Assembly: GCA_021234155.1 (NCBI GenBank) | Contig: JAJEKV010000035.1 | Span: 11,100,407 to 11,164,406, forward strand | Source: Isoetes taiwanensis | Taxonomy: Eukaryota > Streptophyta > Lycopodiopsida > Isoetales > Isoetaceae | Direction of reading: 5' to 3' | Length of the DNA stretch: 64,000 nt | Shown here: positions 7,671 to 54,019 of the stretch, in pieces | How the letters are laid out: every line of letters begins with the position of its first letter | How positions within the stretch are numbered: the first letter of the stretch is position 1 | Program-made: the position numbers and the translations under genes | The notes under the pieces: model-generated | Seen by the model: only the letters and a program-made list of their open reading frames with translations | What the model was told of the DNA's origin: nothing | The model's database searches: none

Positions 7671-7901
7671 CATGTCGTATAATTTCTTTCACATTTTCGC
7701 GCTATTTTTACTAAGTATATGTCATCGAGGGTTGCATGTCTTTAACAAGTATATATATATGTGTATTGATTCTCACAGGAAAAGGCCCCTGCGTAACCTT
7801 GTCGATGGGGATGTGGTAGTTGCCGAGGGGACATGAATTGCATAGAGGCCATCATGGCGGAACATTCCATGGCGTAATGTGGTGCGTGGAGGTCCATTGA
7901 A

Positions 7902-8497
7902 GCCATAGTGCCCACCCATGTGCTTCCCATTCCATGTGAGGGAGCGATAACATTGCCGGGTGGGGACATTTATCGAATGGCCTCGAAATCAAGTGAAGTA
8001 ATTGTGAAGGAGCCCCAACTATGTCATCGGGGACGCGTCGTCTTTGAAACCCCCAACTTGCCTAGGAGTCCCCCACAACATCATCGGGACTTCGGTGTCG
8101 ATATAAAAGGCCCTTCAAAAAAAGCAAAGACAGAGAATATGGTGAACCTTGTCAGTAATAATACTGTGGTTGGTAAGGGTGTCTTGGTGAATAGAACTTG
8201 CATCCATGGGAAGAATGTTGACCACTCAACGTAGCAGTGCAAGTTACCGAGGCTGTGGTGCCTACCCACATCCTTCCGATTCCATGTGATGGCGCTGACA
8301 ACATTGAAGAGGCTGTGGGCACGTTTATCGAATGGCCTCGGCAGGATATAAGATATCATGCCATTGATTTAGCTACTCCATCACTGACCTCGAATGTAGA
8401 ATCTGTAGAGGCAGTGTCAGATGCAGATGAAGAAATTGATCCTACAGTGGATCTAGGTACACGTTTTCCTCGCAGGATAGCATCAGATGATGACTAG
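7902..8497 (+). pseudogene. Tandemly duplicated ORF remnant truncated by a Helitron-like element
   Basis: Two adjoining reading stretches share the same start: (E)A(I/V)VPTH(V/I)LPIPC(E/D)GA. In the second copy this continues as DNIEEAVGTFIEWPRQDI and runs to SDDD, with the stop TAG at 8495-8497. In the first copy the matching DNA (acatttatcgaatggcct) is read in another frame, so it carries an indel. A short tail with a WP(R/K) motif is reminiscent of the ends of plant CACTA or Ulp1-type transposon ORFs, but I cannot confirm the family. The stop codon lies inside the terminal CTAG of the adjacent Helitron-like element, so the true C-terminus has been lost. Confidence 0.45.
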
Positions 8498-35090: not shown

Positions 35091-35287
35091 ATGCCATGGC
35101 CTATAGCCTGCATTGAGTTTATAGGAGATTTCCTTTTACCAGAGTTAGAGGTTGTGGATGACACGAATTTTCTTAATGCACCTCCAATGGCTGCCAGGAC
35201 CACAAATTCGGAAAAGAGGGCACACTCAATGGTGAAACATTATCCTAGCAAGAGGTCCAAGTCAAGTAGTGATTATTCACGTGAAGC
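35091..35287 (+). pseudogene. ORF fragment interrupted by the 12 kb hAT-like element
   Basis: ATG at 35091, then about 65 codons including FLLPELEVVDDTNFL and a basic Ser-rich end (HYPSKRSKSSSDYSREA). The reading reaches the target-site duplication CGTGAAGC at 35280-35287. On the far side of the element (47456 onward) the same frame continues for about nine codons before a stop. The family is unknown. The hAT-like element appears to have landed near the end of this frame. Confidence 0.3.
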
Positions 35288-35339
35288 CAGGGATAGGTTC
35301 TGTACGTATGAAACTATTTTTTCAGACGTATAAAGTGCA

Positions 35340-35640
35340 AAAATACGTATTTTTATTGTATTTAATACTTTCGCCGGAAAAAAAAGTTTCCGTGTTTAAA
35401 CCTTCCGTTTTAAACTACGCGAACTTTCTTTCCGCGTAGCCGAAGTCTAAGTTTTAAACTACGCCGAAACCCCTCGCCCGGCTTTAGCGTGGCGAAAGCT
35501 TTAATGTTAAACACACGAAACTCTTTTTTTCGGCGTAAGCGAAGTATAAGGGTTAAACTACGCGAAACTTTTTGTTCACGTGGCGTTCTTTGCGTTTAAA
35601 CTTACGCGCTGATTCAAATTTTAAACAGTTTTAAACTTTT
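35340..35640. promoter_or_regulatory. Left subterminal motif array of the hAT-like element
   Basis: Repeated, mixed-orientation motifs: TTTAAACTACGCGAA, CCGCGTAG, GTTTAAACC and GGCGTAAGCGAAG. The opposite end of the element has the same vocabulary. In hAT elements such subterminal repeats are transposase binding sites; that role here is inference. Confidence 0.6.
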
Positions 35641-35648
35641 GAAGTTTT

Positions 35649-35660
35649 CTATATATATTT
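35649..35660 (+). promoter_or_regulatory. TATA box for the cargo transcription unit
   Basis: CTATATATATTT stands about 35 bases before a short leader that ends in AACAAAG|GTAAAC (donor at about 35696). A matching acceptor TTTTTTTTTTTCAG ends at 36686. A non-coding first exon and a 1 kb leader intron before the ATG at 36763 are therefore plausible. Confidence 0.45.
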
Positions 35661-35695
35661 CGAGGCGTTTTAGTTATTTCTGCCTAGAGAACAAA

Positions 35696-36686
35696 GGTAA
35701 ACCACCGCCTGCTCCACAACACATGCCTCTTTGCCTTTTTTTTTTCATTTTCCCCTAGTTTTTAGCCAAACCTAGGTAGTTTTCTGTTGTTTTTTTAATT
35801 GTAGGTCTAGGGTTCCTCCATAGTGAGGCCCTTGCCTGTTGCCCCCGTCGATTGAGGGGCGTGACGATGGCGAGCGTCTCGACCTATGGTTGTTGAATCC
35901 AGACTGAATTTTTTTTAAGAAAAAAAAAAAAAAATAAAATGAAATGCAATAGAAATAAAGGAACAAAAAAATAATGAAATAGAAATAAAAAGAAGAAAAA
36001 AAATTTTGGTTGCCTACCCTTTCATCGACAACAGTAGTAGTTAGGGTAGAGAGTGATCCTTGGCTAGGTTAGAAGTTCGGAGTGATCCTTGGCTGAGGCA
36101 GTGACCCTCGCCTGGCGTGCCACATTTAATTGTGCCATGCCGATGGTGGGTGTCATTGCTGATGTTGAGGATTGCTAGGGTCAACCTCCCATTTAGATGT
36201 ATAGCCCTCCTCCCGCCGCTTGTTGGCCCGGTCCGGTCACGGTGCTAAAGGGTGGGTGTTGTACTCTTATGGAAGGTCGGTCGAAGAATATTTAATGAGA
36301 TATACCCTATTTTCTCGACGGTGTTGTTGACGAAAGTCCAACACTAATATAGGGAGGGCGATATTTCATTAAATATTCGTGACTTCGATAGGTGGTCTTA
36401 TGCAATATGTTGAGTTGAGTGCTTTGCCAACCTCTATGAGGGAGTTTCTCGATTCTCGAGTTGGATCAGATCATAAGTTAAACTTGTGGAAGAGAATGAG
36501 AAAATGCATTGCATATAACCGTAAATCAATCTCGATTAGATAGACTATAGAGTGCCTATAACCCTCAACTTGGAACTGAGTAGAGTGCCTAAAACTGTCA
36601 AGCTTGAAACGTAGTAGTTTACTAGAATCTTAATGAACCATTTCACGGCTTATTAACATTCACTAAAGTCGGTTTTTTTTTTTCAG
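35696..36686 (+). other. Probable leader intron, no gene inside
   Basis: Bounded by GTAAAC and TTTCAG. It contains an A-rich run (35918-36003) and GC-rich unique sequence without coding signal. Some small open frames here are chance. Confidence 0.35.
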
Positions 36687-36762
36687 ACTCTTAGGTGTTG
36701 ATGCTTTGCTTTTGCTTTCTTTGGCATATCGCTATCTATACACAGTTTCTTCTAAAGTTGCT

Positions 36763-38470
36763 ATGAATCCACAAGAGTCAGACGGGCTTAGACTAGAAGT
36801 ACAAGTAGCAGAGCCTCCCATGAGCCCTAGAGAAGGACCTAGGGTAGTAGCAGAGCCCCACATGAATGTAGAGACCGAGCACTCTACTAAGATGCAAAGG
36901 AAAAGATCAAGACCCCAACAACCATGGTCCAACCTAAGACACCTTTTAATGAATTGGCTTTGTGAGCTTAAATGCAGGTACGCCACCCCATCTGAGTTAG
37001 AGTTGATTACCACAACAGAAGAAGGATGGCTAGACTTCCACTCAGGTCTCATGCGAGATGCTGAAAGAGCTTTTGGGCCTCGAATGATAGACCTAGAACC
37101 TGAAAAGATTGATTCTGAAAGGTATGCTTGGATAGATGGCAATGTATCCCGTACAACTGGAAACATGATACATGCAGTAGCAAATCTAACTAGTCCGCGC
37201 TTGAGAGAGTCTTTGAAAGATAAGGCTGTGGAATGGAACACAGCTTGGACAAATCGAAAGCTCAGAAAGGAAACCCATCAACCCCCCCACCTAGTTAAGA
37301 AAGTGTTGGCACAGACTATTAGAGCCAAGCGTCCTGGTGAAACTGATAAAGAGTGGGAAGCAAGAAAAAGGGCAGATGCCAAGACTATATGGTTTGCAAT
37401 GGTGGATTGCTCTCAAATAATCAACAAGACCAGAATTGGTTCAGGAACATATGGAACGGTATTCAAATGCAATATCCTGGGTTCTAGTTTTCTTAAAGAC
37501 GAACCCTATTGTGTTAAATTTCAGAATGATGACGTGCGGTTAGGTACGGCCAGGCCTGATGTGATAGTAAAGGCCATGATGAAAAACATGAGGGAATCAC
37601 AAATGCAGGTTAGACATGGGTCTATCATACGCATTGGCCGCATAAACCGGGTTGGTAAGAACGGGGTTGATATTTCCCTCTTGGAATGGGGGTTCTTGTG
37701 CATCTCTTTTTGTGAATCATGGAGATAATGAGTTTGCCAAGCATGCATTTAAGAGACTAGGGTATAAACCTCTTTGTCGAGGTCGACGATCTGAAGCTTG
37801 AGCAACGAAAAAGCAAGAGTTATATGTTGCTCAAAGAGTGGGTGATCTAACTATGTCGCTTTTTAAGCGGCTTGCTTAAGCTTCATAAAGAGCACCATTT
37901 ACACATGGACTTGCACCCTGGCAATGTCTTGCTTCATTTTGAATTTGGGAAAGAGAGAGGTCGCACCGGACCCCGTGCTGTTTATATTGGTATATGTGAC
38001 CGGGGAGAAGAACGGTTAATAGGCGAGCCCTGTGGAAGTGAAGCGGTGGGCATACAAAAACATGGATGCTTGCCAAAAGGCAATTGAGAATGAAAGGCTT
38101 GCCTATCCTTACATGCACGATGATTTGTATTGGGGTCCAAACAGAGATGGAACGAAGATGGAATGCAAAGGTAGACTTTGACCTCTTAGGGGCAGCCTAC
38201 TTTATTTATTACCTTGCTGATTTTGCACGCAAGCATTCTTTCTTGGAGACCATAGGTACCAATGAACAAACCCGTGAGGTTTCAAACATGTGCGATTATT
38301 TGAAGCAATCGCGGGGAATCCCCAATACGAACAAGGCACGCAAGTTTGATCTGAACCAACTCTCGAACACCATCGCGGAGCACTTGGAATTGCTCTCCAA
38401 CACATTGCACAAGACCCCAAACGGAATCAGATTGGATTCCTCAAGTTGGGTCAGGCGCAGACGATGCTGA
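36763..38470 (+). pseudogene. Protein-kinase-like cargo gene with frameshifts
   Basis: ATG at 36763 opens about 320 codons. There is an N-terminal extension of roughly 220 residues of unknown type. Then comes a kinase N-lobe: glycine loop RIGSGTYGTVFKC (residues about 222-234), and YCVKF whose Lys is at the VAIK position. After a frame change near 37690 the frame shifts again several times. The next blocks read LYVAQRVGDLTMSLFKRL (hinge-like), then HLHMDLHPGNVLLHFE (HxDLxxxN catalytic loop, about 37900), then ICDRGE in place of DFG. After a further shift DFDLLGAAYFIYYLADFA follows (helix F-like Asp). The order is right for one kinase domain but at least three frame changes break it. The DRG in place of DFG and the unusual insert suggest an atypical kinase. 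Alternatively the shifts hide introns or assembly errors, though I find no convincing splice sites. Confidence 0.65.
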
Positions 38471-38713
38471 CCAAGCTGGACCAAGTCACGCTTAGCGTGC
38501 CATTTATGAGCTCTCTTGTACGCAACGAAAAAAAATATTGATTGAGCAATTGCTTGAAATACTTTAATAAAACATCTTTGGCATTGCTATGCTTATTTTT
38601 TGTTGCACTTTTTTATTTTTATAATTTATAAGTCATATTGAGTTGTTGTTTATTTCACGCAGTTAACGTAAAGCCTATTTGCTGGAATACTATTGCACAA
38701 CTTGTCTAGTGCC

Positions 38714-40159
38714 ATGCCAAAAAGAATGTCTGAACAACCAACGAGTTCGTCTCAGCGGCCGAGAGAAGGTGTTGGTGAAACAGCACATGAGGGCGACTTC
38801 GAGATGCCGTCCATTTTGAGAACTCCAGGAGAAGGAGATCAGTTTGTATTCCCTTCCCTACCTACAGTGTCAGAGGTTAGGGCACAACAGTTACAGAAAG
38901 CAGAGGAACATGCTAGGATGAATGAGTTGCGTGCGAAAGAGTTGTTGAGGTTGAGGGCAATGGCAGAAGTGGCTAAGAAACCAGGTGTCACAATTACAGA
39001 GGTGCATGGAGTTGCATGTGACATGGGGCCAGGCTGTTGCCCGCATGGAGCCGATTTTGAGGATATCGAGGCCAATTTAGACGCCAAACAGTTTGACAAC
39101 GACTGGCCAAGCAGGAGAGTAGGTAAGTATAAGGCATATGACTGCAAGATCCCTGAAGTCCGAGCTAGAGCTTTGGAGAGGTGGGTGCAAGTGAAAGGAA
39201 CAATGATAAAAAACCATGAATTCAGCAAGACATTTGCCAAGCAAGTGTACTATGAGATTGTGAGAGGGGAGGTTGTAAATTATGCCAGTAGAAAGTGGAA
39301 ACAAGGAAGCGGCAGTGGTAGCAGCAAGAGAGTGAAGCTTGCGGAGGATTCCGAAAGCGCTCTTGGTGATGAGCCCGTGACTATAACTTATTTGCTTCAA
39401 GATGCCATAAAACTTTTAGACGTAGCGTCGGTTGCAGCAGCAGGTGCAGTGACAGATGAGGTAGATGTGAAGGCTCAGTTAGAGAATGAAAGAAGTCGAA
39501 ACCTCACTTTGTCAGAGGAAAACGTGCGCTTAAAAGATCGTGCAAATGCTCATGATGTGATGGCTGCAGAATTACTAGACACAAAGAATCAGCTTGCAGC
39601 TTTGGGTAGGGAAAATACGGTGTTGAGAATAGACAATGACCATATGCGCACAATATCAAGAGTTTTAGATTCTGATCCCCTTAGAGTCTCCAAGGAGCAG
39701 GGTATTTCATACCTCCCTCCCGAATACCTATATGACAGTCAGTGGGATGATGTAAAGAACGGAGACTTTAGATATTGTCAAGTATGTGCGGATAATCTGA
39801 CCCAAGTTGGTTGGTATGCCTTAGGGTGTGGACATCGTCTGCATTTGAGATGTTTGTTGGATTGGATGATGGGCAGTAGGTTCTGTCCATCAAATGATGG
39901 ATATATTATACCAGAGCGCCAGTATGCAATGCTCAACATGCAATCACGCATGCCTCCCTTGCCAGCTATGGTTGCTCGCAGGAGGGATGGAATGCTTCAT
40001 CAGTTCCAAACACAACGTGAAATGGACCTTTGGATGGGGGTAGAAGAACCGCGTGAAGGTGAAGAGGTACCAGACATTAATCAGTACCTGCCCCCCGCTC
40101 CTGGGCCAGCAGGTGATAGTAGTGCGAATGTGGATGCAGACGATTACATTAACCCATGA
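38714..40159 (+). CDS. RING-like coiled-coil protein, hAT cargo
   Basis: An uninterrupted 481-codon frame from ATG 38714 to TGA 40157-40159. Segments in order: a Ser/Pro/Glu-rich N-terminus (MPKRMSEQPTSSSQRPREG), a Glu/Arg-rich helix (about 55-90), a Cys/His patch (ACDMGPGCCPHG, about 102-112), a basic Gly/Ser linker with KRVK, a coiled coil (about 255-318), then a RING-like finger CQVC...LGCGHRLHLRCLLDW...FCP (about 355-392), and an acidic Pro-rich tail. CGHxxHxxC is the core of a RING-H2 finger. The last zinc pair is incomplete, since FCPSND lacks the second Cys, so E3 activity is uncertain. The protein follows the kinase-like gene in the same direction about 240 bp downstream. Being the only long undamaged ORF in the element suggests it was kept by selection or is recent. 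Confidence 0.7.
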   Translation: MPKRMSEQPTSSSQRPREGVGETAHEGDFEMPSILRTPGEGDQFVFPSLPTVSEVRAQQLQKAEEHARMNELRAKELLRLRAMAEVAKKPGVTITEVHGVACDMGPGCCPHGADFEDIEANLDAKQFDNDWPSRRVGKYKAYDCKIPEVRARALERWVQVKGTMIKNHEFSKTFAKQVYYEIVRGEVVNYASRKWKQGSGSGSSKRVKLAEDSESALGDEPVTITYLLQDAIKLLDVASVAAAGAVTDEVDVKAQLENERSRNLTLSEENVRLKDRANAHDVMAAELLDTKNQLAALGRENTVLRIDNDHMRTISRVLDSDPLRVSKEQGISYLPPEYLYDSQWDDVKNGDFRYCQVCADNLTQVGWYALGCGHRLHLRCLLDWMMGSRFCPSNDGYIIPERQYAMLNMQSRMPPLPAMVARRRDGMLHQFQTQREMDLWMGVEEPREGEEVPDINQYLPPAPGPAGDSSANVDADDYINP

Positions 40160-40388
40160 GCTACTCTACATTATTTTTTTTGATATTTTTCCCTGAGTTC
40201 TCAGATGCACATGAATGAACTAACGTTGACGAGGATTCTTTTGTCTAAATAACATTTAGGGGGTTGGGTTGCCGCATTGAGTTGTTTGTTTGTGTTGTAG
40301 TTAAGTATAGTAAGTATGTTAGTGAGTCAAAACATCCTAATTAAGGATTAGTGGACTTCCTAACTCGAGACTTCCAACTCGCTCACCC
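40160..40388. other. 3' flank of the RING-like gene
   Basis: T-rich sequence without coding signal. No canonical AATAAA polyadenylation signal is evident here; a run of Ts is at 40173-40180. Confidence 0.3.
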
Positions 40389-40508
40389 TGGCTTGGTCTC
40401 CTTCGTTTTCTGTTTATCGTATCTAATTTGCCCCCTAGGATGACATCGCTCACTCAGGTGGCGAATTAGATACGTTGAGCAGGAAACTCGAAAAGGGAGT
40501 AAGCCTTG
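40389..40508. repeat. Hairpin 1 (family A)
   Basis: Arm 40389-40434 (GGCTTGGTCTCC...CGTATCTAATTTGCCCC) pairs with 40457-40508 (GGTGGCGAATTAGATACG...GGGAGTAAGCC) with bulges. The loop is about 20 bases. Confidence 0.85.
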
Positions 40509-40575
40509 GATGGTTGGATGGTCAGTGAGTCAAAACATCTGCACACGCAACCTATTTGACATCTGGACCTCATGT

Positions 40576-40702
40576 CAGGCTTAGTCGCTTTTGTTTGTCC
40601 TGTTTGATGTATCTAAATTGCCCCCTAGGATGAGGTCGCTCACTCATTTTAGGTGGCGATTTAGATACATCAAGCAAGAAACTCGAAAAGGGAGTAAGCC
40701 TG
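40576..40702. repeat. Hairpin 2 (family A)
   Basis: Arms (CAGGCTTAGTCGC...GATGTATCTAAATTGCCCC and GGTGGCGATTTAGATACATC...GGGAGTAAGCCTG) are copies of hairpin 1 with correlated changes. CGTATC pairing with GATACG in hairpin 1 becomes TGTATC pairing with GATACA here. Confidence 0.87.
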
Positions 40703-40735
40703 AATTAGATCGCGACCCTCTTGAATGGTTGTCAA

Positions 40736-40995
40736 GTCACTAGGCCTTATATTCTCCATGGCAAACAATATAGACTTCTCGAAATTCTTGTTACCTCCTT
40801 TATAAGGAGCGAGCTTTGCTCTGACTCTCTTCTGCGTGTCTCAGTGTCAATATATCTTAGATACTTTGCTAGGTTATATTACACAAAGACGCGCAAAATG
40901 GGGGTCGGAGCAGAAATCGTTCATTCTAAAGGAGGTTACAAGGTTTTTGAGTACTCTATTTTTATTGTGGCCACGGAGGATATAAGGCCTAGTGG
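40736..40995. repeat. Hairpin 3 (family B), about 260 bp
   Basis: The outer arms CACTAGGCCTTATATTCTCC and GGAGGATATAAGGCCTAGTG pair over about 20 bases. The inner arms around CTTGTTACCTCCTTTATAAG and TTCTAAAGGAGGTTACAAGG also pair, down to a loop around 40860. Confidence 0.88.
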
Positions 40996-41042
40996 TTGCT
41001 TGCGATTCTGTGGGTTCATTAGATGTTAGTGATTGATGAGTT

Positions 41043-41164
41043 CAAGCATCGAGACTTCCCCGTTTTTCTTTCCCCCCGGCTCTTTGGGCAATGTAGCTTA
41101 GTTTACATGTCCATTGTCCAAAGAGCCGGGGGAAAGCAAAGATTGGGACGTCTCGATGCCTGGA
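41043..41164. repeat. Hairpin 4 (family C)
   Basis: CAAGCATCGAGACTTCCCCG...CCCCGGCTCTTTGGGCAATG pairs with CATTGTCCAAAGAGCCGGGG...GTCTCGATGCCTGG, with a loop of about 20 bases. This is the best-paired member of the array, with about 50 bp of stem. Confidence 0.92.
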
Positions 41165-41206
41165 CCCAGGTCTTCGGGTTAATTGGATGTTAGTGACTGA
41201 TGAGTT

Positions 41207-41327
41207 CAGGCATCGAGACTTCCCAATCTTTCTTTCCCCTCCTCTTTGGGCAATGCACTTAGTTTACATACTAAGTTCCATTGTTCAAAGAGGGGTGAAA
41301 GCAAGGTTTAGGAAGTCTCGATGCTTG
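41207..41327. repeat. Hairpin 5 (family C)
   Basis: GGCATCGAGACTTCCCAATC...CCTCTTTGGGCAATG pairs with CATTGTTCAAAGAGG...GGAAGTCTCGATGCTTG. Same family as hairpins 4 and 10 but with independent paired changes. Confidence 0.9.
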
Positions 41328-41385
41328 TATTCAGGTCTCTTTCATCCTGGCCTGGAGCGTGACTTTCTTGAATGGTTGTCAACTC

Positions 41386-41838
41386 ACCAGGCTTTATATT
41401 GTTCGCTGCAAACAATATAGACTTCTCGAAATTCTTGTTACCTCCTCTAGAAAGAGCGAGTTTTGCTCTGACTCTCTTGTGTAGTCTCTCTGTGTCAATG
41501 TAGCTTAGTCACTTTGCTAGGTTATATTACACAAAGAGGCTCACAATGGGGGTCGGAGCAAAAATCGTTCGTTCTAGAGGTTGAACTTGCTATGACGTCA
41601 GAGGTGAGAGCGCACTCTAATTTCAAGTCAAAGTGGTGCCTGGGTGTTGTCCATCTATATAGCGGTTGTTAGGCACCAAATCATGGAACATCCTAACTCC
41701 CACTATTGATGGAGAACCTTGAGCATCACTATGACTTCAAATTAGAGTACGCGTCCCCTTTGGCAACGTGGTGGATTGTAGGTAACAAGGTTTTTGAGTA
41801 CTCTATTTTTATTGTGGCAGCGGATGATATCAGCCTAG
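41386..41838. repeat. Hairpin 6 (family B), split by hairpin 7
   Basis: The inner stem (CCTCCTCTAGAAAGAGCGAG near 41441 with TCTAGAGG near 41573) is continuous. The outer 5' arm CACCAGGCTTTATATTGTTC finds its partner only at 41781-41838 (GGTAACAAGG...CAGCCTAGTGG). The 3' arm is therefore interrupted by 41583-41780, which is hairpin 7. Confidence 0.8.
41583..41780. repeat. Hairpin 7 (family D), inserted in hairpin 6
   Basis: GCGCACTCTAATTTCAAGTC and AAAGTGGTG pair with CATCACTATGACTTCAAATT and AGAGTACGCG. It stands exactly in the gap of the hairpin 6 3' arm, so it arrived later. Confidence 0.82.
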
Positions 41839-41870
41839 TGGTTGCTTGCGATTCTGTGGTTGCACGCCGA

Positions 41871-42042
41871 TGGCATGCCAAATCGCCATTTGGATGCCAT
41901 CTGGACCTATAATTTGTACCTCCATTCCTTTGGGTGGCACATGCCATGCAAACCCATTTGGGTATTCAGAGCATGTGCCACCCAGAGGAATAGAGTACAG
42001 ATTATAGGTCCAGATAGCATTCAAAGCCCAATTTGGCATACC
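41871..42042. repeat. Hairpin 8 (family E)
   Basis: GGCATGCCAAATCGCCATTT, GGACCTATAATTTGTAC and TGGGTGGCACATGC pair with GCATGTGCCACCCAGAGGA, ATTATAGGTCC and CCCAATTTGGCATACC. The stem is about 70 bp. Confidence 0.9.
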
Positions 42043-42076
42043 GAAGTTATTCCCTTATTCCCGACTTGGGTACCGA

Positions 42077-42248
42077 AGTACCTTGTGAACCTTCGGATGG
42101 ATCAGATTCGTCCGGGCTGGTCCGAGGCTGTTTGGCCCCTTCGCATGCGTAGATTACTTCTCATTAGCAAGATTCTGGCGCATGCGAAGAGGCAGGCAAC
42201 AACGGAGGTCGAGACGGGTCTGATCCAACGAAGGTTTTCAGGGCACTG
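42077..42248. repeat. Hairpin 9 (family F)
   Basis: AACCTTCGGATGGATCAGAT, TTGGCCCCTTCGCATGCG and matching bases pair with CGCATGCGAAGAGGCAGGCA and CTGATCCAACGAAGGTT. The loop is about 30 bases near 42160. Confidence 0.9.
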
Positions 42249-42350
42249 CGGTTACACATGAAAGAAACATAGAAAGAACTATCATACATGAACCCAGGTC
42301 TTTGGGGGTAAGTTCGACATAAAATAAGATAGCTCAGTGATTGACGAGTT

Positions 42351-42474
42351 CAAGCAACGACACTTCCCACTCTTTCTTTCCCCACCTCTTTGGGCAATGT
42401 AGCTTAGCTTGAATGCTAAGTTCCATTGTCCACAGAGGCGGGGTGAGCAAGATTGGGAAATTCTCGATGCTTTG
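42351..42474. repeat. Hairpin 10 (family C)
   Basis: CAAGCAACGACACTTCCCAC...CCACCTCTTTGGGCAATG pairs with CATTGTCCACAGAGGCGGGG...AATTCTCGATGCTTTG. A third copy of family C, about 1 kb from the other two. Confidence 0.88.
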
Positions 42475-42739
42475 ACTTTGATATCCGGTCGACTGATGTT
42501 ACAAATGAATGAAACATGGACGGAAGTTACATGAACCATCATACAATACATGAAAGAAACATCATACATGAAAGGAAAATTCCACAAGGTAACGAAATAT
42601 ATGGAAGACAAAAAACTTGTAACAAAAAACTTTACTTTTAATTCATAGTGCCAGGATGGTTACAATAGTTTTTGAACATCCTCATACACGATTACAATAG
42701 ACAGACTGAGGGTAGTCATCACCTCCTCTCTCTAGACAT

Positions 42740-43089
42740 CACCGTCTTCATCAATTTCATCATCTGCACTTCCGTCTTCTTCTGCCAGCTGGCCTAGGCT
42801 CAACCTCCTCTGGCCCTTTCCCTTACTGGAACGTCCTCGAGATGTGTTCTTCGACTTCGTTGCCCTGCTTGTGCGGGTCATTGGCATTGAGAGTTAAGCT
42901 AGCTTCGCGTACCATTAAGTCCTCAGGCTGATCTCTTGTATTACTTGGACCTGGCCTTTCTGTATCTGACTCCTCTTCTGTATCTTCGCTGTCGTCTGAG
43001 TTGTCCGAGAACATGTTCTTGTCTAAATCATCTTCGGCATCGACAAAATGGGTACGTTGAATGTCCTCGTCCAACATGGTTAGCGGCAT
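42740..43089 (-). pseudogene. Acidic tail region, probably end of the hAT transposase gene
   Basis: From ATG 43089 the frame reads MPLTMLDEDIQRTHF and is then strongly acidic (DNSDDSEDTEEESDTERP). It stops near 42823. A second frame continues with SLGQLAEEDGSADDEIDEDG to a stop near 42740. Acidic tails after the dimerisation domain are usual in plant hAT transposases. Position and strand agree, with the nested element 43180-44431 lying between the two parts. Confidence 0.45.
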
Positions 43090-43179
43090 TTACAAAAGCA
43101 GCTCGTCCTCACCGTCTTCAAGTTGTCCTCTTCCACTTTAGAATGCGATCCATGAAAGGGAACTAGCCGGTGCTTGATC

Positions 43180-44431
43180 GGCTCCTCGAAATTGAGTTCA
43201 GAGGAGCGGTCGGGTTACCGCTGCGAACCCAGAAAATTCGCCCAGGCGAACCCCTGGGATTCGCCCAGGCGAACCCGCCATGTTGACGTGGCGCTACGTG
43301 GCACTACCTACCGGGTTCGCCCAAGCGAACCCGAACCGCGGTTAACCAAACGTGCAAACTGGTGCGTTTATTAGCTAGGGGCATTTATTACCCCTGCTGG
43401 GTTCGCCCAAGCGAACCCACACGTGTGCCCCTATTTCGTTTGGGGGGCATTTATTACCCTATTTCGTGGGGGCTCCGACCCGCAAAGAAGGGGAACGCAC
43501 GAGATTTGAAGCGGGCCGCCAGGATTGAAGCAGGATTGAAGCAGCCCGATGGAGTTGTAGAGCCGGCAGGTTCAAGGGGGGAAGCTGGGGAAACTAAGAA
43601 CGAAACAGAGAGCAAAGCAAGGTGCCTTTCTTGCCTTAAAGCAGACTGCGGCACCTACTTATGCCTTCCTTTGATTTCTTTTTTTTGGATACAAGCATGG
43701 TTGTTGAGCCAGGGTCGGATCTGCCCAGACAAACCCTGTGACTGTAAAAAGAGGAATAGCAACAAGAATCAACTCACGAATTGACAGAATCTGAAACAGG
43801 CTCCAAGGCAACCAGGTATGGGCGCTATTATGGGTCGGCCGACCAATCGGCTATGCAATCAAGCGAAGCTGCACATGAGAAATCAGATATCACAAACAGA
43901 AAACCAGACACAGATCAGTCCCGCAGAGCCAGACAACTAACTTACGACCAAAAAATCCTGCCAGGAGGATCCCGCCCAACATAGCCAGGCTAAGCAGGCC
44001 GGGTCCAAACATACAGGGGAGGGAACTGAACCGGCCAAGCAGCTAAAGCATCCGGCCAGGATCCGGCCAGCAGGATCCATAAATGATGTTTTTTTTATGA
44101 CAAATACGATCCACTTACGATCCTCTCCACTTACGATCCTCTCCATAGCAACCCCGACCCTGCGCCCGCCAGGCCGTCGACCGGGACCAAGGGGAACGAA
44201 CCCTCGTGGGTTCTGGGTACGTCGTCACCGGCGCCCACTAGCGCATCGATCCGCCCGCCGACGCTTTGACAAGCACCGGGGTTTGGGTTCGCCCAAAGCG
44301 AACCCGGCAAAGAATGCCACGGCATTCGACATTAAACCGATCCCCGATGCTCTCTCCCGGGTTCGCTTGGGCAAATTTTTGGGGTTCGCCTGGGCGAACC
44401 CGCTTGGCACTTTGACTCAATTTCGGGAGCC
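43180..44431. mobile_element. Nested 1.25 kb element with GGGTTCGCC(C/T)(A/G)(A/G)GCGAACCC palindromes
   Basis: The ends are GGCTCCTCGAAATTGAGT on the left and ACTCAATTTCGGGAGCC on the right, which are inverted repeats. Further inside, the near-palindrome TTCGCCCAGGCGAACCC occurs in several copies near the left end (43215-43400) and again near the right end (44280-44402). The interior is GC-rich, has no convincing gene and includes repeats of CCGGCCAGGATCC. I see no clear target duplication. It lies between the dimerisation-domain part and the acidic tail of the hAT transposase remnant. Confidence 0.7.
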
Positions 44432-44439
44432 AATAAAGT

Positions 44440-46610
44440 GGGCGGGGAACTGCAGCTTATCAACTACGGCTGCACCACTGTTGCGATTCAAGAGACGCCA
44501 GTTTGAGAAGTTATATACAAGTTTGTCACCCTTCTTATGCGAGGGCGCATTTCGCGGTCACACTATGTATATATTTATAAGCACTCCGCTCTCACTTGCA
44601 CTATTGGAGGATACCAAGGAGAGGATAGTCATTGCAAGGGCCTGTAACGTGTCGAAGAACTTTGTCCATGGGCTTGCCACCATGCATAAGATTCCATATT
44701 TGGTTCCTTCTTGTGACTCTCCGATTACATCGTGAAGCTCTTCATCCGCCCACCTTCCACTCAAGTTCTCAGTATTCAGTTAACTTCGGCAATGAAAACT
44801 TTGTAGTCCGAAATGTTGGGGTAAAACATTTTTGCAACCTTCTTCAATGAACCCATCACTTCTTTATCTGTATGCTGGTCCATATCATGGTTGTGTGGGT
44901 CTAAGGCATGTGCGGCGCCATGTAGATCATTGTAGGACTTCTTCCATCGTTCATTGAAGTCTCTAAGCGATCTTTGCTTAGCATTGTCAAAGGTGCATTA
45001 GGGCCATCGCGTTCTAGAAAGGATTGAATGGAGTGCCAGCACCTCCACCACGGTGCTTGCCTTCAAGAATCAAGGGTTTTGATGGCATAACAAACAGGTT
45101 GCATGCACTTGACAACATTCTTAACGCCTCTCCAAAATGTCTCCCGACCAAGCATTTCTCGAAGAGCGGCAGCTTGCTGCCGGTGTTTTGAAGCATTTTT
45201 TCCCTTCTGCCTCCTCTCCCATTCAAAGAACTCTGTATGGTTGAAGGTCGAGATAATCGAGTCGCGACACCTGAGCACTCTTTCAAGACAAATGTAATTG
45301 GAACCAAACCGGGTCTGCCCAGGATTCATGAGTGCAAGGGCCTTCTCGACGCAATGAATTGTATATGGCGAAATTGCCTAGCTTCTTTGTGATGAATTTC
45401 ACGACGACGGGCCTTTTGAATGGGATCTTTGAACCAAGCGTGCTGTGAAAACCAGTCCTTCAGCAATAAGTTTAGGCAATGGCATTGGCAGCTGGTCGCG
45501 TGCAATCCTGGAAATTCGGACTCCAACATTTCACCCGCTAACTTACAATTAGATGCATTGTCCATTACGACCTGAAATATTCTCTTCGGTCCAAAACTCT
45601 CTATCACAACCTTTGTCTTTTGAAAAATCCAATCTCCTCGTGACTTGGTCGAGTTTTGGTTTCTACGGTTTTTAAGAATACTTACCCCCCTATATCGATC
45701 ATGAAATTTATAAGATGGTCCTTGTTTACATTGCTCCAACCATCGGTGACTAGAGAGGCTGGCCCGGGCTTCAAAGAACACGACTTAACTTCGGTTCCAC
45801 CCTCTCGACCATTCTTCCATGAATTTCATCCACCATTTTGTTATTCGCATGTTTGTATGAAGGCAATCTAAAAGCTGGGCCTGCTTTGGCAACTTCCTGG
45901 AAGGCTTCTTTGATTGCTTTGTGCTCCAAAATATGTGGAGACAACCCGCGTGATAGAAAGGCCTCTACAACCTTCAATTCGCGCTTCTTGATTGCTCTGA
46001 AGTTAAGCACCGTCAACCCTCTCCGTTGCTTAGTCCGTCTTTCCACTATCCGAATTGTCTCTGCCATTCTTTTTTAGCCCAGTGCTTAACCCACCTATCG
46101 ACCCTAGTCCACCCTCTCGGGTTGGTACGTTGGCTACCGGAGGGGTGGTGTAATTGATCTCTTCTTCTTGGCATGTGAAGGTTCTTGGCTATCCCTTGGT
46201 CGTGTTCTTACGCTTCTATTCTTTTTCGACCCAACACTTCAAGTGCATCTTGTCGTATGTCGTGATGTGCCGTACATGTTTGCACCCCCAATTCTAGGAT
46301 CCCGTAAAAGATGAGCTCGCATTCTTGTCGCGGATCCATTTATTGACGGTACCCACAAAATACACATTGCCACTCATTCTCGACCAAATTCCTTCACAAA
46401 TCCCCACTTTCGGACCTCTTTTCGACCACCGTGATTTTCGACATATAATTCTTCCACGTCTTGTTCCAACTCCCCGGGTCTCCTCGCCATGATCACAAGA
46501 ATGGTCGCGCACCCCCTAGACGATGATGCATGACCGCCGGCGGCGCCGGATGTGGATGCATGGCCGCGAGCGGCACCTGATGTAGATGCATGACCAGCTG
46601 GCATCCCTGC
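44440..46610 (-). pseudogene. hAT-family transposase, multiply frameshifted
   Basis: Read downwards from about 46604: a repetitive Gly/His/Ala/Ser leader (GHASTSGAA), then a BED-type finger whose parts lie in different frames (EWQCVFCG; RMRAHLLRDPRIGG, about 46380-46290). A block at about 46067-45771 resembles the region before DUF659. DUF659 proper follows with RIFQVVMDNASNCKLAGEML and HATSCQCHCLNLLLKDW (about 45610-45450). Next comes TRFGSNYICLERVLRCRDSI (about 45320) and a catalytic-end block with FWRGVKNVVKCMQPVCYAI. The dimerisation region has LQALAMTILSLVSSNSASES (about 44650-44580) and KLVYNFSNWRLLNRNSGAA. Stops and at least five frame changes separate the blocks, so the gene is dead. 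The family call rests on the DUF659 and dimerisation motifs, which are distinctive. Confidence 0.8.
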
Positions 46611-46929
46611 TGCTAATATGCTATCTAAAATTATTGTCCCTGTTTTAGTATGCTAAAGGGTAAAGACTCCTTAATCGTCCAAACTAAAGGCCGAGGTCTA
46701 TATACGCGAAGGAGCAAGCTCATCACGATATAGTTACATCGACGTCCGGTTCGAACGTAAGGAGTGAAGGACAGGAACCTATAGGTCTCTAAGGAACAGG
46801 GTAGGAACCCAAGGTCGGAAAACTCTGTGAAGGAGGAATCTCACTTCACAATTCCGGCGTCAGGCCCCGGACGCAAAAACCCACACCTCAAAGGCTGACC
46901 GTTTCCCAAGGAGTATGTGGACTCAACCT

Positions 46930-47440
46930 GGTGGTCAACGTTCGAGGCGAATTCTATAGCTAAACAAGTTTTCCTTAAATATAATATTTCACCTGCACAA
47001 AATAGACCCAACAGTGGCGCAAAAAGTTTTTTTCCCTTAGCAAAAAGGCCCAAGATGCTTTGCAAAGTTTTGAAGCGAAAACAAATCGCTTTCGCTTTAA
47101 ACTGAAATTCGGTTCGAAGTAAAACATTTTTTCGCTTTACGCGAACCGTAAAATAGTTTCGCGTGGTTTAACTTGTCCGTTTAAACTACGCGAAGATGTT
47201 TTCGCGTAAAGCGAAACAGTTCATTTCGCCTGGCCAAACTATTTCTGGTTCGCAGAAGCCGCGAAAAATCTTTTTTTAAACTACGCTGAACCAAACTTCG
47301 CGTAAGCGAAACAGTTGTTTTCGCTTACGCGAAATTTTTCGACGCCGGAAATTTTTTTAGCTGTATTTTTGACGTATTAAACGTCAATTTTGAGCCGTAT
47401 CAAACGAAAAATACGTATTGCGTATAAAACGTATACAGTA
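46930..47440. promoter_or_regulatory. Right subterminal motif array of the hAT-like element
   Basis: Repeated TTTCGC, GCGAAA, TTTAAACTACGCGAA and TTCGCGTAAAGCGAAAC palindromes, then ATACGTATT(G/T)-type repeats just inside the terminal repeat. Mirrors 35340-35640. Confidence 0.6.
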
Positions 47441-47589
47441 TTGAACCTATCCCTGCGTGAAGCTATGGCTAAAGTAAGGAATAGAATAGAATAGAATAGT
47501 TTTTTTAACGTCCACGGAGACCAATAGGTCATGGGACCCATACAATGGGCTAGTACAATCATTACTACTAGGATTAAGGGGAATGGAAT

Positions 47590-48078
47590 GTTGTTGGGCT
47601 AATTGTGTTCAAAAGTTTGAAATTGATGAATTGGTGGAAGCAAGAGCCACCTTCCAAGAGTATACTTGTGATGCAAGGAGGACTTACATGTACTTCATTC
47701 ATGAGCTTGCACTTCAAGATGAAAAATATCCAAAGAAAAAAGATACCCACTGCTAGGGACATGGATATGTAAAGGTGTGTGGATACATATTCATGGCATT
47801 CCAATTTCATCTTGGTAAAATTGGCAAACAATTCATGCAAAGGGGAGCAAAATTGTATTACATGGAAATAATGACATGTTGAGGCCAACTTCTAGGATCC
47901 TGGCTGCTAGGGAGGTTTTTGATAAATATGTTGAATTCAATGCTGAGAATGTGCCATATAAAAGTAGGAAAAATCAACAGGAAAAAACAGTTGTCGAGAA
48001 GAGATTGCCATCCCATTGTACACAGAAGAATATATTGGAGAAAGTGAATGCTTTGCTTCGAGAACTAATGGTACCTGC
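47590..48078 (+). pseudogene. Transposase-like fragment with zinc-cluster pattern
   Basis: The plus strand reads CVQKFEIDELVEARATFQEY and TCDARRTYMYFIHELALQD, with a stop near 47757, then YIFMAFQFHLGKIGKQF. In another frame follow ILAAREVFDKYVEFNAENVP and a basic, Leu-rich end at MVPAMP (48083). The C...R-x2-F-x4-CDAR-x-TY layout resembles 11464-12141 (C-x3-C...R-x2-F-x5-NAR-x-TY). I take both as remnants of transposases related to the one at 26183-29335, although the catalytic part is absent. It ends where the first 155-bp repeat begins. Confidence 0.45.
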
Positions 48079-48233
48079 AATGCCACGGTTCTATTGCGAC
48101 AGCAATAGAACCGACATTCCTTGGATGGGGACGTCCCTTTGTCACTCCTCCTATTTATTCAGCCTCTCTTCATTGTTCTATCATCGGCGTTCTCTTGAGC
48201 TAGATTTCTTCTTCTTCTCTATCCTATCAGTTT
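48079..48233. repeat. 155-bp direct repeat, copy 1
   Basis: Identical to 53365-53519 as far as I can read. It begins AATGCCACGGTTCTATTGCG and forms a hairpin at once (GGTTCTATTGC with GCAATAGAACC). The inner part TGCC...ATCA would fit the TG...CA rule of LTRs, but neither a primer-binding site nor a polypurine tract is recognisable. Confidence 0.92.
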
Positions 48234-51200
48234 TATCAATCATCTACCTGTTAGTTTGTACTGATGATCTACCACTAGGACTTAGATTTTCATGTTGGCA
48301 TCACCTCTTTGGAAGCGCAGCTGCATCTAGCAACAGGATGGGTGGCAGGATCCAGGGACGGTCCTGTTTAGATTCAAGCGGATATAGATTGTCACGGGCG
48401 TGGTTTGCAGCGGCACAAGGAGGATAACAGCATCTTTGTTCCAGAACCTTCTTTTCGGCAAGCTGCATGATTCAAACACACAGGTCCGTGGTTTCTTGTT
48501 TGCTCATAGATTTTATTTTAGTGGCATCTTGGTTTTCGTCCAAATTCGTGCAATAGATGAATCTTTATAGGATCTGGCTTGTGGTTTCGTGCTTTTCGTT
48601 GTTGAATTGTTTGGGTTTTTTATTTGTTCGAATTTGGGATCTGTATATGATCTGGCTGCGAGTTCCTTAGTCTCGAATTTTGGGGCTAGTTCTTCGCCTC
48701 TGTCATTTCTTGCTTTGTTTGGCTACTATGGCTGCTTCACCGCCTTTGTCATCTCCTGCTTGGACATCCTTCAATACATCGACTTGTGCAGACCTGAGCT
48801 GTTTAGGGCCCTTTTTTGGTTAGCTTCTAACCGGCAGAGGCCAAGGATTCTTTCGCCGCTTTGCCTTTTGCCGACTTTGTGGCATTTTCATTCGAGTTTT
48901 TGGGGTTAATCGGTTGAGAGATTCAACCAATAAGTTAGTACTCTCGATGATCTTCGCTGCATTCGAAGGAGATCTGCTGAATGAAAATACATAAATAAAT
49001 AGATGTATTTCTGTGAACAGAGCCATTTGCGAAGTCTTTGTGATAGCTGATTGATTGCAAGATCAGACAATACTGTCAGATCCATGCTTTTTTCTATTAC
49101 TTTCTCAGATTGTTACTGATTCTTTTGTTTTCTAAGCTTCTGGATCCGTTTATTGTTTTAGAATAATTAGGATGTAGACTTGCAAATCATATATTGTCTA
49201 AATAGCTTCATAAAAGAGATCGATGGAGTTTGGTGGATCGATTCCACTGTTTCTAGCCTCTCCTTCTGCAGTCCATCGCTGGCCCCTTTTTATCTTCTGC
49301 ATTCTATCGCTGCCCCTTTTTATCTTCTGTTTCAACCTAGCCAACAGGTTATTCCTTTCTAATCTAAGCTGCAAAACCGAAACCGCCTCCGCCTCTGTAG
49401 CATAACTCGCAGGTTTTTTTGGGAGAGGGTTACCCGGTTTTGGTTTCCCTTGCCCCCCGGGCTGGGGAATACCGGTCCCCGCTTTCCCCCAATTTTATTT
49501 TTGCTAATTCTAATGGTTGATCTCTTTTTGTTACGTCATCTAGCTTGCTCTAGTAGACATCAATTTTTTGGGCTCCGGATCGTCTGATTTGCGCTAAGGA
49601 GGGCATGTTTTTCTCGCCACCTTTGCCCGTATCTCCACCAGTCGGTGAGTGCATTGTTGAATAGTTGTTGTGAGGAGTTTTCACATTTAAGCAAGACCAG
49701 AGTTCCAGGGTAGCTTCACAAGGTGTGGCCCTACGGTGTTTTCACATTTCCCTTTTATTCATACTCATGCTACATATATTTCTACGTGTGTTGAGACCAT
49801 GCTCCTGTTGTTTTCATAAGAGCTCACTAACGCCATGTTGTTTGAGGAATTTTTTGTATTTGCCATTGGCCCCATTGGCGAAGTTGTTGGTTTTTCTAGC
49901 TTGGTGGTGCAGGTACTGAAGGGTTAAGTCCAAGTCCGGATTCTTAGCCTCGGCCCTCCACGCTTCTGGCTTCTATTTCGATGGTTGTTGCGGATCCTCG
50001 TTGGCTAATCTGGAATTCTAACAGAGGCTTGCACTCGTCCCTCCAGTCTCCAAGATGCTTTACGGTTTGTTTTGCTTACACATTGTTTTCTCTATGACAA
50101 CTTCAATGTTTGATTTCGATAATTTGAATGCGATCTTTGCTTTTGTCTCTATAATAAGATCAGTTTCTCACGAGTGTAGGAGTATTTTTTGCTTGGAAAA
50201 TTTGACTTTTTTGGAACATTCCTTGGGGCTTGCATGTTATTTGTTGGTTTAGACTTGCATGTTTCCAACTTGTTTGTGAGCAGTTCCATTAGGAATTGTA
50301 TCGAGCATAGAGATTATGCTTTAGTTTAGCATGTGTATGACGTCGGCATGTTTATTTCGTTTGATAGAGATATTATTGTCATTATTTGCGAACTACGAAT
50401 TAACATTTATTGTTTTTTGGAGCTATGTGATTCGATTTCGTTAGATAATTTTCATGACGAGTGTTTCTTTCTATTCTATTCTATAATCTTCATGATGGGT
50501 GATTCATTCTCTATAATTTTCATGACGGGTGATTCATTCTATCTATTCTCGCGTGCGTATATTTTTGCAGTCCATCTGTCTCATGACTTCCATTTTCTTC
50601 TCTTTTGGTGTCTTGCCTTTTTTCTCCTATTTGCCCCATGATACCATGATACTTCGTCTAGGCTTCTTGTACCATTGTCAGATTATCCTCTTTGGTCATA
50701 TTATTTTCTCAGTTTCGATTATTAATCATTTGTGGTAGATTGTACTTCGGGTTACCCCATGGCACCAGGATCCTGGACTTCTTGTGCTTTTTGTCAGACT
50801 ATCCCATTCGGTCATAGTATTTTCCCCATCCTAATTATTGGTTTCCTTTGTGTTGTGGTAAACCTTATTCTTGCCGTCAGGAGTGCGTTACGCGTTACAA
50901 GTTTTATTGCTCTTTCTTTCGTGGTATTGTGGTAGATTCTTAGTCTTGCCTTCGGAAGTTCGTTAGATATTGCAGGTTATGATCTATTGTAGTGGTTTTA
51001 TTTGCTTCTCGTGGACGTTAAGATACCATCTCTTCATTTGTCGAGTTTATGGTGCTTTTGTTTTTAACCTTTATCCCTCTGAATTTATTTGTTCCAGTTC
51101 ATCTTGTTTCATTTGAGCTTCTTTGTTTCATTGGCTAATATTGTGTTTGTTCTATTTGGCCTAGCCTATTCCATTTGCTCCCTCAAGGTTGCTTTGTCCA

Positions 51201-53332
51201 AGGTTGTCATTGACTCCATTATTCTTGATTGCGATATGGTCCATTTGCTCCCTCGTTTTTAGCTTGTCAGTTTCTTTTTTTGCACCATTCGTTTCATTTG
51301 GCCTGAATTTACTCTCGTTGTTCGTCGTTCCCTGATGCTTTTGTTGATATATGTTGTGTCTTGAACACCATTATCTCCTACATGCTCCTCTTGCTGAGTT
51401 ACTCTTTGATCCCTTTAGCTCGATTACCACTTTTATTATGCCTTTGTTTAGGTTGTTCCTTTAGCCTCCTTTTTAGCCTCGTTAGCCATGCTTGGTATTG
51501 CATTTATCCTTTTGCTTGAAGTCAGAGGTTCGGGAGCTTGTACCTTTGTGATTTTTCTATATGTAGGCTCTACATAGTATTGTTACTTTTCACGTTTAGG
51601 TGCGTGGTTACTAGTGATTTGGCTCCAATGATACATTTAGTCCTTTGATTCAGTTTGGCTTTTGCTTCAAATAGATGTTACCCCTTTGTGCCATTTTCCC
51701 GTTTTTGGTCCCTCTATTTTCTTTTGTGCCTTTGTCCCAGTGGTTTCACTCGGTATCTTTTGCACCCCTTCGATATGCTTCGTTCATTTATCACAGTTGT
51801 CGTTTTATTCTAGGTTATTCAGGTTTGTTGCTTGATGTCATTATTCCAGTTACTTGTTTTCCTATGGACTTGTTTGGTTAGGTGATCCATCCACTCGCCA
51901 TTGCTTCATTATTTCAATTTATTTTTTAGCATCATTTGCTCATTTATTTCCATTTAATCAGTTTTTTAAGTACTTTACACCTTTAAGTTTTCTAGTACTT
52001 TATGCCTTTATTCTTTCTAGGAGTGTGACATTTGTCACTTGGGTATTTGTTGCTCCCTTTAACTGTTTCTCTATTTTTTGCTTTGATTTTTTGTTATCTT
52101 CGTTTTTAGATTCGTTGTGCTTTTTCCATCAGCCTCATCTGTGCATTCTCTTTCATTTTAGTCCAGTGACCCTTGTAGATTCGTTTCTTATTTTCTTTGA
52201 AGCATATTTCCAATTGTTTTCTTAACTCTGCAGTACACATGACATTCTTATTTCGCTTATGGTAGCTTTTAGAGGCTAATCCATCCATTTGCCATTGCTT
52301 CATTATCTAAATGTGCTTTGTTTCCTCCTTTGCTCATCTTTGTTCCATATTTTCCCTTTTTCCAAGTACTTGGTGCCTTTATCTCCATTTGTTCCAGTCT
52401 ATCAGTCGATTTGTTTGTTTCTAGGTGTTTTATATTGGGTCACTTGGGTTTTTGTTTCTATGTCTTTCGCATTGATCCTTTGTTGTTTCTGTTTGTGAAT
52501 TCACTCCACTTGTTCCATGTGGCCCATCAGCTCATTTTGTGCATTCTATTTTGTTGCAGTGACCTTTGTAGACTCGTTCCTCCCCTTTTCTTTTTTATTC
52601 CACATTTTTCAATCGTTTTATTAGATTCTACATGCCTCATTATGGGTTTGGTGCGCTCCTTTTGCTATACACTCCTCATTATATCATTTCTCTATTTTGG
52701 TTGGGTTTGCATTGTTTCCTTAATTTATTTTCTTTAGCTTATTGTTTTCATTTAGCTCTAGTAATATTATTACTATATTAGTCACATTGGTTCCTTCTTT
52801 GGTTTCTTTGTCTTCTTGCTCCTTTTTTCTATTGCTGGTTAGGATCGTTTGCTTTTATAGTATCTTTGTTAGTGTAGTATTTATTGGACATTAGTCATTT
52901 GAGATCGTTACTCTGATGATGACATCATGTTCGTGGCTCTGTCTGTTGTTGTCCCATAAGTTCCTTCCCTCATCTCTTACTGCACTATTCCATTGTCTTC
53001 TTCATTCTTATGTTCCCGTTTCTATCTCTGATAACATTCCTCCATCGTGTTCTCCTTCATTTTTATTCATTCCATTGTTTGCATTCCGGCATTACTTGCT
53101 CTTTCTGCTTCTTCATTGTTCCTTTGTCTCTGTCTTCTCTTTATCCCCTTTTTTCTCTGTTTTTCTTAGTTTCCTCTTCCTTCGTTTTACTCTGATTGCC
53201 GTCATCCTTATCTATGCATTCTTTTCCAGTGACCTTGTAGACTCGTTTCTCCCTTTCCTTATACTATATTTCTCTCCCTTTCTTTCAGTTTCCATGCTGA
53301 GTAGTTTTTGAGTTTGTTCCTCTTCTATCGGC
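48234..53332. other. Pyrimidine-skewed region of about 5 kb without convincing genes
   Basis: The plus strand becomes more and more T/C-rich, especially 50-53.3 kb, with many TTTGTT, CATTTG and TTCTT words. Open frames here are low-complexity Phe/Leu/Ser and match no family. The skew is one-sided over kilobases, as in long transcribed non-coding DNA or the interior of a degenerate retroelement. I see no reverse transcriptase, integrase or gag motif. Confidence 0.5.
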
Positions 53333-53367
53333 CAGTATATGCCTATCATAGGACCCATCCTAGGAAT
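53333..53367. repeat. 35-bp direct repeat, copy 1
   Basis: CAGTATATGCCTATCATAGG followed by ACCCATCCTAGGAAT is identical to 54302-54336. It overlaps the start of the second 155-bp repeat by three bases. Confidence 0.92.
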
Positions 53368-53519
53368 GCCACGGTTCTATTGCGACAGCAATAGAACCGA
53401 CATTCCTTGGATGGGGACGTCCCTTTGTCACTCCTCCTATTTATTCAGCCTCTCTTCATTGTTCTATCATCGGCGTTCTCTTGAGCTAGATTTCTTCTTC
53501 TTCTCTATCCTATCAGTTT
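53365..53519. repeat. 155-bp direct repeat, copy 2
   Basis: Perfect copy of 48079-48233 in the same orientation, 5.3 kb away. The identity suggests a recent event, either an insertion or a segmental duplication. Confidence 0.92.
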
Positions 53520-53606
53520 CCCTCACCCTCCCTCCCTTGATGGTTTTTTCATTTGATCGTGTTCGTTATTTCTTTTCTATGTCCTTTAATTTTGCATTCT
53601 TTATTT

Positions 53607-53935
53607 CCTCAGCGTGGCTTTGTAGCCTCTGAGGCATACTTATTGGTCTACTCTTTCTTGGCATGGCACTGGTATTTTTATTTATTCATTCATGTTTTCT
53701 CTCGGTGTGGCTTTGTAGCCTTTGGGTCAATATTTATTATTCATATTTTCTCTCGGCGTGGCGTTGTTGCCTCCGAGATCATATTTATTGTTTTTTCTCG
53801 GCGTGGCGCTGTAGCCTCCGAGGCAGCACTAATCGGTTGTTTTTTCCCGCGATGGTCATTCCGCGGACGGTTCCCGATTGGTCGGCTGTTGTTTCTTTCT
53901 CGGCGTGGCCCTGGAGCCTCCGAGTCTTCTTGCCT
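53607..53935. repeat. Imperfect tandem repeat with TCTCGGCGTGGC...GCCTCCGAG palindromes
   Basis: Five copies, of which the second and third have decayed. Each unit has TCTCGG(C/T)GTGG(C/A) and, about ten bases on, GTAGCCTCCGAG, so every unit can fold on itself. The spacing is about 50-110 bp. Confidence 0.8.
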
Positions 53936-54019
53936 ATGGCATCTAACTCATTGACGGGTTATTTTTCTTTCAGCCTTGATTCTGCAGGATTGTTTAAGGC
54001 TTTGTGGTTGCCATAGTGC

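Follow-up and report, generated by a model that had tools for sequence, protein, structure and literature searches.

Plant miRNAs and siRNAs that derive from MITEs or other transposable elements usually originate from element ends or from solo MITEs. To our knowledge, only a few transposon-encoded small RNAs serve the transposon itself, an example being the single hairpin of miR820. In Drosophila, the TART-A/nxf2 system reportedly operates through piRNAs and a captured gene fragment, with no hairpins. The closest precedent for the locus described here is rice miR820, which the available part of its report presents as a miRNA stem-loop in CACTA transposons that targets and represses the host methyltransferase OsDRM2, with one stem-loop, five copies in Nipponbare and a possible derivation from the target gene itself (PMC3459959).

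Here we describe an array of ten long imperfect hairpins (40391–42482) situated inside a hAT element in a 64,000-nucleotide stretch of DNA from the lycophyte Isoetes taiwanensis, which is hereafter called the window. The array resembles miR820, as far as the latter is covered by the part of the report available, in consisting of miRNA-type stem-loops in a class II transposon that were multiplied with it (PMC3459959). It differs in having 6 to 12 stem-loops and six families per uncut array, with 284 copies of the tip of hairpin D, and in residing in a hAT rather than a CACTA element and in a lycophyte rather than a grass. As in TART-A/nxf2, where transposon sequence is thought to direct small RNAs at a host silencing factor (available part of PMC7785250), the array may direct small RNAs. 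The putative small RNAs of the window would, like those of other MITE- and transposon-derived loci, come from the inverted repeats of a DNA transposon, whereas the hairpins are here internal, diversified and ordered, and belong to a gene-carrying element. Transposon-borne miRNA hairpins are already known; judged by titles and the beginnings of abstracts, the open-access papers retrieved on transposon-borne hairpin arrays and anti-silencing hairpins included no ordered, diversified and exchanged array of about ten.

Autonomous plant hAT elements of the Ac/Tam3 type are characterized by an 8-bp target duplication, short terminal inverted repeats (TIRs) beginning with CAGGG, and a transposase with a hAT dimerisation domain. 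The original prediction placed the hairpins in a hAT-like transposon, an assignment that can be sharpened to hAT. The copy in the window sequence is complete at both ends (35288–47455, 12.2 kb), with the 13-bp TIR CAGGGATAGGTTC at each end and the 8-bp target-site duplication CGTGAAGC, and the better-kept copy L013 encodes the C-terminal hAT dimerisation domain (PF05699, E 3e-9) together with DUF659 (PF04937). The features of the element, apart from the array, are as follows.

35280–35287, unstranded: left target-site duplication, CGTGAAGC, read from the sequence
35288–35300, plus strand: left TIR, CAGGGATAGGTTC, with an identical end in copies L009 and L014
36667–38500, plus strand: cargo gene 1, kinase-like, frame broken into 36667–37728 and 38042–38470
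38714–40159, plus strand: cargo gene 2, RING finger protein, frame open in the window
43026–46650, minus strand: remnant of the hAT transposase gene, approximate limits transferred from copy L013, with DUF659 at 45326–45784
43165–44444, unstranded: insertion within the transposase end of the window copy, about 1.28 kb long
47443–47455, minus strand: right TIR, CAGGGATAGGTTC inverted, 13 bp
47456–47463, unstranded: right target-site duplication, CGTGAAGC, 8 bp

The element thus has the 8-bp duplication, short TIRs and hAT-dimerisation transposase of the Ac/Tam3 type, and additionally holds the hairpin array as well as two plus-strand cargo genes that are subject to purifying selection, kinase and RING; the transposase lies on the minus strand. 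The transposase frame is broken in the window, where DUF659 was the sole domain found, and the kinase gene retains in copy L014 an open frame of 621 codons with PF00069. Copy L009/L010 is flanked by a different 8-bp target duplication, ACTTCTTG. The 1.28-kb insertion is missing from all 14 copies in which its two flanks could be aligned, and near each of its ends it has a palindromic motif resembling GGGTTCGCCCAAGCGAACCC.

Copies of the element fall into two clades, between which the RING and kinase genes show pS values of 0.76–0.81 and pN values of 0.20–0.25 (four comparisons), and the RING gene has a dN/dS of 0.23–0.37 within clades (three comparisons). The saturation of synonymous sites between clades, together with the low dN/dS, indicates that the cargo genes are old and under purifying selection. 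None of 7995 candidates scored was a homolog of the RING protein at E ≤ 0.001, and four homologs of the kinase were found at the same threshold, the best being 43 % identical and the others 25–27 %.

All ten inverted repeats of the original prediction were found in their place by an inverted-repeat search and folding, and its family assignment (A, hairpins 1 and 2; B, 3 and 6; C, 4, 5 and 10; D, E and F, single) agrees with ours.

40391–40506, plus strand: hairpin 1 (A1), from inverted-repeat search, folding and shuffles
40575–40703, plus strand: hairpin 2 (A2), from inverted-repeat search, folding and shuffles
40735–40998, plus strand: hairpin 3 (B1), from inverted-repeat search and folding
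41037–41170, plus strand: hairpin 4 (C1), from inverted-repeat search, folding and shuffles
41201–41335, plus strand: hairpin 5 (C2), from inverted-repeat search, folding and shuffles
41380–41580, plus strand: hairpin 6 (B2), 5′ arm and tip, with the outer 3′ arm beyond D
about 41590–41771, plus strand: hairpin 7 (D), within the 3′ side of the B2 stem
41780–41863, plus strand: hairpin 6 (B2), outer 3′ arm, separated from the 5′ arm and tip by D
41871–42047, plus strand: hairpin 8 (E), containing two 21-bp helices without interruption
42081–42236, plus strand: hairpin 9 (F), from folding
42340–42482, plus strand: hairpin 10 (C3), from folding and shuffles

The description of the hairpins as standing side by side applies to the array in general and fails for D, which is lodged in the 3′ arm of B2; an uninterrupted B2 is present in five other copies (L013, L014, L018, L019 and L020). 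Likewise, the six families are valid as classes but not as unrelated groups, because the alignment of B with C shows homology (z of 4.8–8.5 against 150 shuffles); there are thus at most five unrelated families, and the families are not fully independent in the tests below. Folding of A1, A2, C1, C2 and C3 gave z values of –8.2, –12.4, –11.9, –12.5 and –10.2, respectively, with none of 200 shuffles as good, and three neighboring control stretches gave –0.01, –1.72 and +1.29. Folded without shuffles, B1, D, E and F reached –147, –85, –111 and –92 kcal/mol. The single hairpins span 116–264 nt, B2 being longer when D is included, and with z values of –8 to –12.5 in the five that were shuffled they have the shape of miRNA precursors, which are mostly shorter than 300 nt and have few large bulges. 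This resemblance is of shape only: at E ≤ 1, Rfam returned 24 matches, 23 of miRNA type, and none reached its gathering score. Conservation profiles in bins of 10 columns displayed no single peak, of 21 nt or otherwise, and the tips of B and C were as conserved as the arms. Captured gene fragments were rejected as well: Pfam gave no match at E ≤ 1 for four open frames that lie in the array or extend into it, nor for one that occupies the nested insertion and continues past it.

The array was then compared with those of 24 other copies, which were retrieved with an array probe, such that its presence in them reflects how they were chosen and is not evidence. In the window and these copies the array occupies the same place, with the same families in nearly the same order: the family map is AABCCB(D)EFC in the window, with variants such as ABCCAB(D)EFF and AABCCBF. 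Uncut arrays have 6 to 12 units, those of L015 and L027 being cut short and that of L009 internally deleted, and a general inverted-repeat search recovered families A to F plus four further repeats, two in L015 and one each in L022 and L025. The fixed place and near-fixed order suggest that the array belongs to the element and is not a pile-up of foldback elements. The original prediction had offered as its alternative that the region attracts foldback insertions, which would leave scattered solo hairpins with target duplications of their own; a hot spot of adjacent MITE insertions with no joint function would account for D interrupting B2 in some copies and missing from others. This alternative was searched for D alone: the three D copies examined, of 40 listed, were all inside such arrays, and no clean target duplication is visible at the D junctions. 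These results, with the shared place and order and the homology of B and C, make a foldback hot spot very unlikely. In L022 and L026, D follows directly after C, and recombination or template switching seems to have added and removed units. Allowing up to two mismatches, the genome contains 284 occurrences of a 27-base segment from the D tip, against none for the reversed control. Same-strand pairs of this tip lie 1.17–1.18 kb apart in G000 (C755:45530/46702, C931:2361987/2363154 and C956:131892/133076), suggesting tandem duplication of an array segment.

With modest confidence, we consider the array to be a resident non-coding cluster of a multi-gene hAT element. Transcription would run along the plus strand, in the orientation of the kinase and RING genes that precede the array, and would yield one or more RNAs that form successive long imperfect hairpins; host Dicer-like enzymes would then cut these into miRNA- or siRNA-like RNAs of 21–24 nt, acting in trans on host genes or rival elements. 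Its structure and evolution, as read from the DNA, support the first part of the original prediction, a putative hairpin-RNA locus carried by a transposon. The second part, a small RNA that steers silencing, would follow from steps that we infer, namely transcription, Dicer processing, action in trans and a benefit to the element. A more far-reaching version, which we hold only tentatively, is that of a transposon-borne arsenal: a miRNA-like cluster diversified by duplication and selected as RNA, passed on as a cassette among transposon lineages that diverged long ago and aimed at the host silencing machinery or at competing elements. The array immediately follows the RING gene, shares its strand and is flanked by convergent genes, a location that would also suit hairpins selected as RNA structure and not for small RNAs, either as a 3′ untranslated or terminator structure that stabilizes, retains or ends the RING transcript, or as a Dicer decoy. 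The variation in unit number (6 to 12 per uncut array) is of a kind that a structural role might allow, but ten diverse stems conserved in both sequence and pairing are probably more than a terminator needs, and we regard this explanation as rather unlikely.

The claim that paralogous stems differ by changes that keep pairing held above chance for A, B, E and F, weakly for C, and did not hold for D. Measured against a base-matched permutation null, in which base changes remain the same in number and kind, 19 of the 22 directed comparisons among 16 representative hairpins showed retained pairing at P < 0.05. These comparisons overlap and are not independent; above-chance pairing was absent in C2 to C3 and in both D comparisons. 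Changes on both sides of a pair retained pairing in 7 of 7 instances from B1 to B2, in 4 of 4 from A1 to A3 and likewise from E1 to E2, and in 5 of 5 from F1 to F2; in the six C comparisons pooled, 4 of 7 did so. In the alignment of the 35 A hairpins, with a structure derived from the very sequences tested, both members had changed at 11 pairs, giving 50 cells (1–13 cells with a slid partner), a number of cells reached by none of 500 shuffles; the pair count itself is not unusual, being matched by 67 of 500. The signal is weaker in the 37 C hairpins, whose structure was derived in the same way, with 7 pairs (120 of 500 shuffles as high) and 25 cells (2–10 when slid). The number of pair types is not unusual in either family (433 of 500 shuffles for A and 315 of 500 for C). 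Counting both sides of a pair, compensated stem columns amounted to 34 of 163 for variants present in at least two copies versus 13 of 238 for singletons, which presumably arose mostly after insertion. Changes that keep a G-U pair were no commoner in shared variants (38 of 163) than in singletons (62 of 238).

Pairing could also be maintained without function at the DNA level, if the two arms of a palindrome are corrected against each other through template switching or conversion, with the same instability spreading the arrays between elements. The duplication and disappearance of units and the shifts of their junctions are in line with this, as is the partial location of the both-side changes of A at adjacent pairs. 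Causes of this type are strand-symmetric and can thus be set against the behavior of the two strands. Columns with G.T pairs exceeded those with A.C pairs by 155 to 105 when counting any occurrence and by 46 to 23 for common states, the latter bias being absent in D (6:6) and E (4:5); in the flanking DNA, transitions seen as singletons showed no significant bias (53:49, 41:44, 47:42 and 6:10). In Watson-Crick stems, the plus-type changes outnumbered the minus-type ones among singletons (71:48), with no excess among shared variants (47:42), a pattern that does not fit a simple picture; the lack of an excess among shared variants speaks for the DNA-level explanation. As for stability, the plus strand folds better in five of the six families, A, B, C, D and F, by 14, 36, 11, 11 and 8 kcal/mol, respectively. 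It is the more stable strand in 33 of 35 copies of A, in all copies of B (22), C (37), D (11) and F (11), and in 2 of 13 copies of E, in which the minus strand folds better in 11, although copies within each family are related and these counts are therefore not independent. Upon removal of G-U pairs, the mean plus-strand advantage drops to between –0.9 and 3.9 kcal/mol, with A still favoring the plus strand in 34 of 35 copies. Simulated neutral decay of perfect hairpins (120 runs each) reached the observed mean in 1.7 % of runs for A, 0 % for B, 7.5 % for C, 13 % for D, 76 % for E and 22 % for F, indicating that the strand signal at the RNA level is strong in A and B, the two families in which it is individually significant, and no more than supportive in the other four. 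Strand-symmetric correction predicts neither the common G.T excess nor the greater stability of the plus-strand RNA, and a G-U intermediate is seen at pair 40-105 of family A, all of which makes maintenance at the DNA level improbable.

Stem conservation was examined against the window in 15 of the 24 copies, using collinear matches. Stems were more identical than spacers in 14 of these copies, a comparison that relies on the alignment of short spacers and whose sole exception, L014, is aligned over just 482 stem positions. They were also more identical than unpaired sites in all 15, the unpaired class being set by the folds of the window itself, which somewhat lowers its identity. Where aligned, stems exceeded the 3′ region in 11 of 11 copies and the 5′ stretch in 8 of 10, falling below the latter in 2. 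Divergence from L013 is 0.060 in stems, 0.181 in spacers, and 0.163 and 0.052 at synonymous and nonsynonymous sites of the RING gene, so that stems resemble protein-changing sites in their divergence and spacers resemble silent sites. In a set of six closely related copies, the stems diverge as fast as the spacers (0.058 and 0.067, pooled), as expected if copies are dead and decay after insertion, and there is no sign of recent constraint. Taken together, pairing retention, stem conservation and the plus-strand excess of G-U pairs suggest, at the level of sequence comparison, selection on RNA pairing.

Comparison between clades in 250-base windows, which uses the best match per position and may therefore substitute a paralogous hairpin, gave 80–98 % identity in 29 of 34 array windows, the lowest being 68 % (five copies), together with 55–78 % in the cargo genes (four clade-2 copies) and 80–90 % in the transposase core. 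In collinear matches of six clade-2 copies to the window, stems were 93–97 % identical and spacers 74–96 %. Such identity of the array beside saturated synonymous sites implies either that arrays passed between clades or that they are under extreme constraint, and the fact that spacers can be aligned favors exchange. We infer that recombination transfers arrays from one lineage of the element to another.

Exchange among copies is also invoked by the view that the array is a liability, its hairpins feeding host RNA-directed DNA methylation of the element and its conservation being due solely to that exchange. Inverted repeats are indeed known sources of silencing RNAs, as in the case of Mu killer in maize. 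The small RNAs of I. sinensis, moreover, have a clear 24-nt peak, according to the available part of PMC5569507. Pairing and stem sequence nevertheless look selected, and the array has no complementarity to the genes of the element within the window, for which reasons we give this explanation only a slight chance. In a search for complementarity between the array and the rest of the window, only matches of 16 and 15 nt just beside the array exceeded chance, and self-targeting was rejected on this basis.

If the preferred reading of a small-RNA cluster is correct, transposons would be able to build and share multi-part RNA programs, and a lycophyte system would be at hand for testing whether transposons use RNA against host silencing; the novelty would potentially be greater if targets in silencing genes were shown. 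Its main claim is directly testable with the public small-RNA data for the sister species I. sinensis, GSE198197, named in the available part of PMC10541799.

Two minor observations concern other copies and the surroundings of the element. In copy L017, the array is followed by a fragment of a Copia-type retrotransposon (6381–8931; integrase and reverse transcriptase), and an adjacent short inverted element, about 0.75 kb long, carries the same hAT termini and may be a MITE of the hAT family of the window. Outside the element, the plus strand of the window has more T than A at 48001–54000, with an AT skew of –0.28 to –0.52 in three 2-kb bins.
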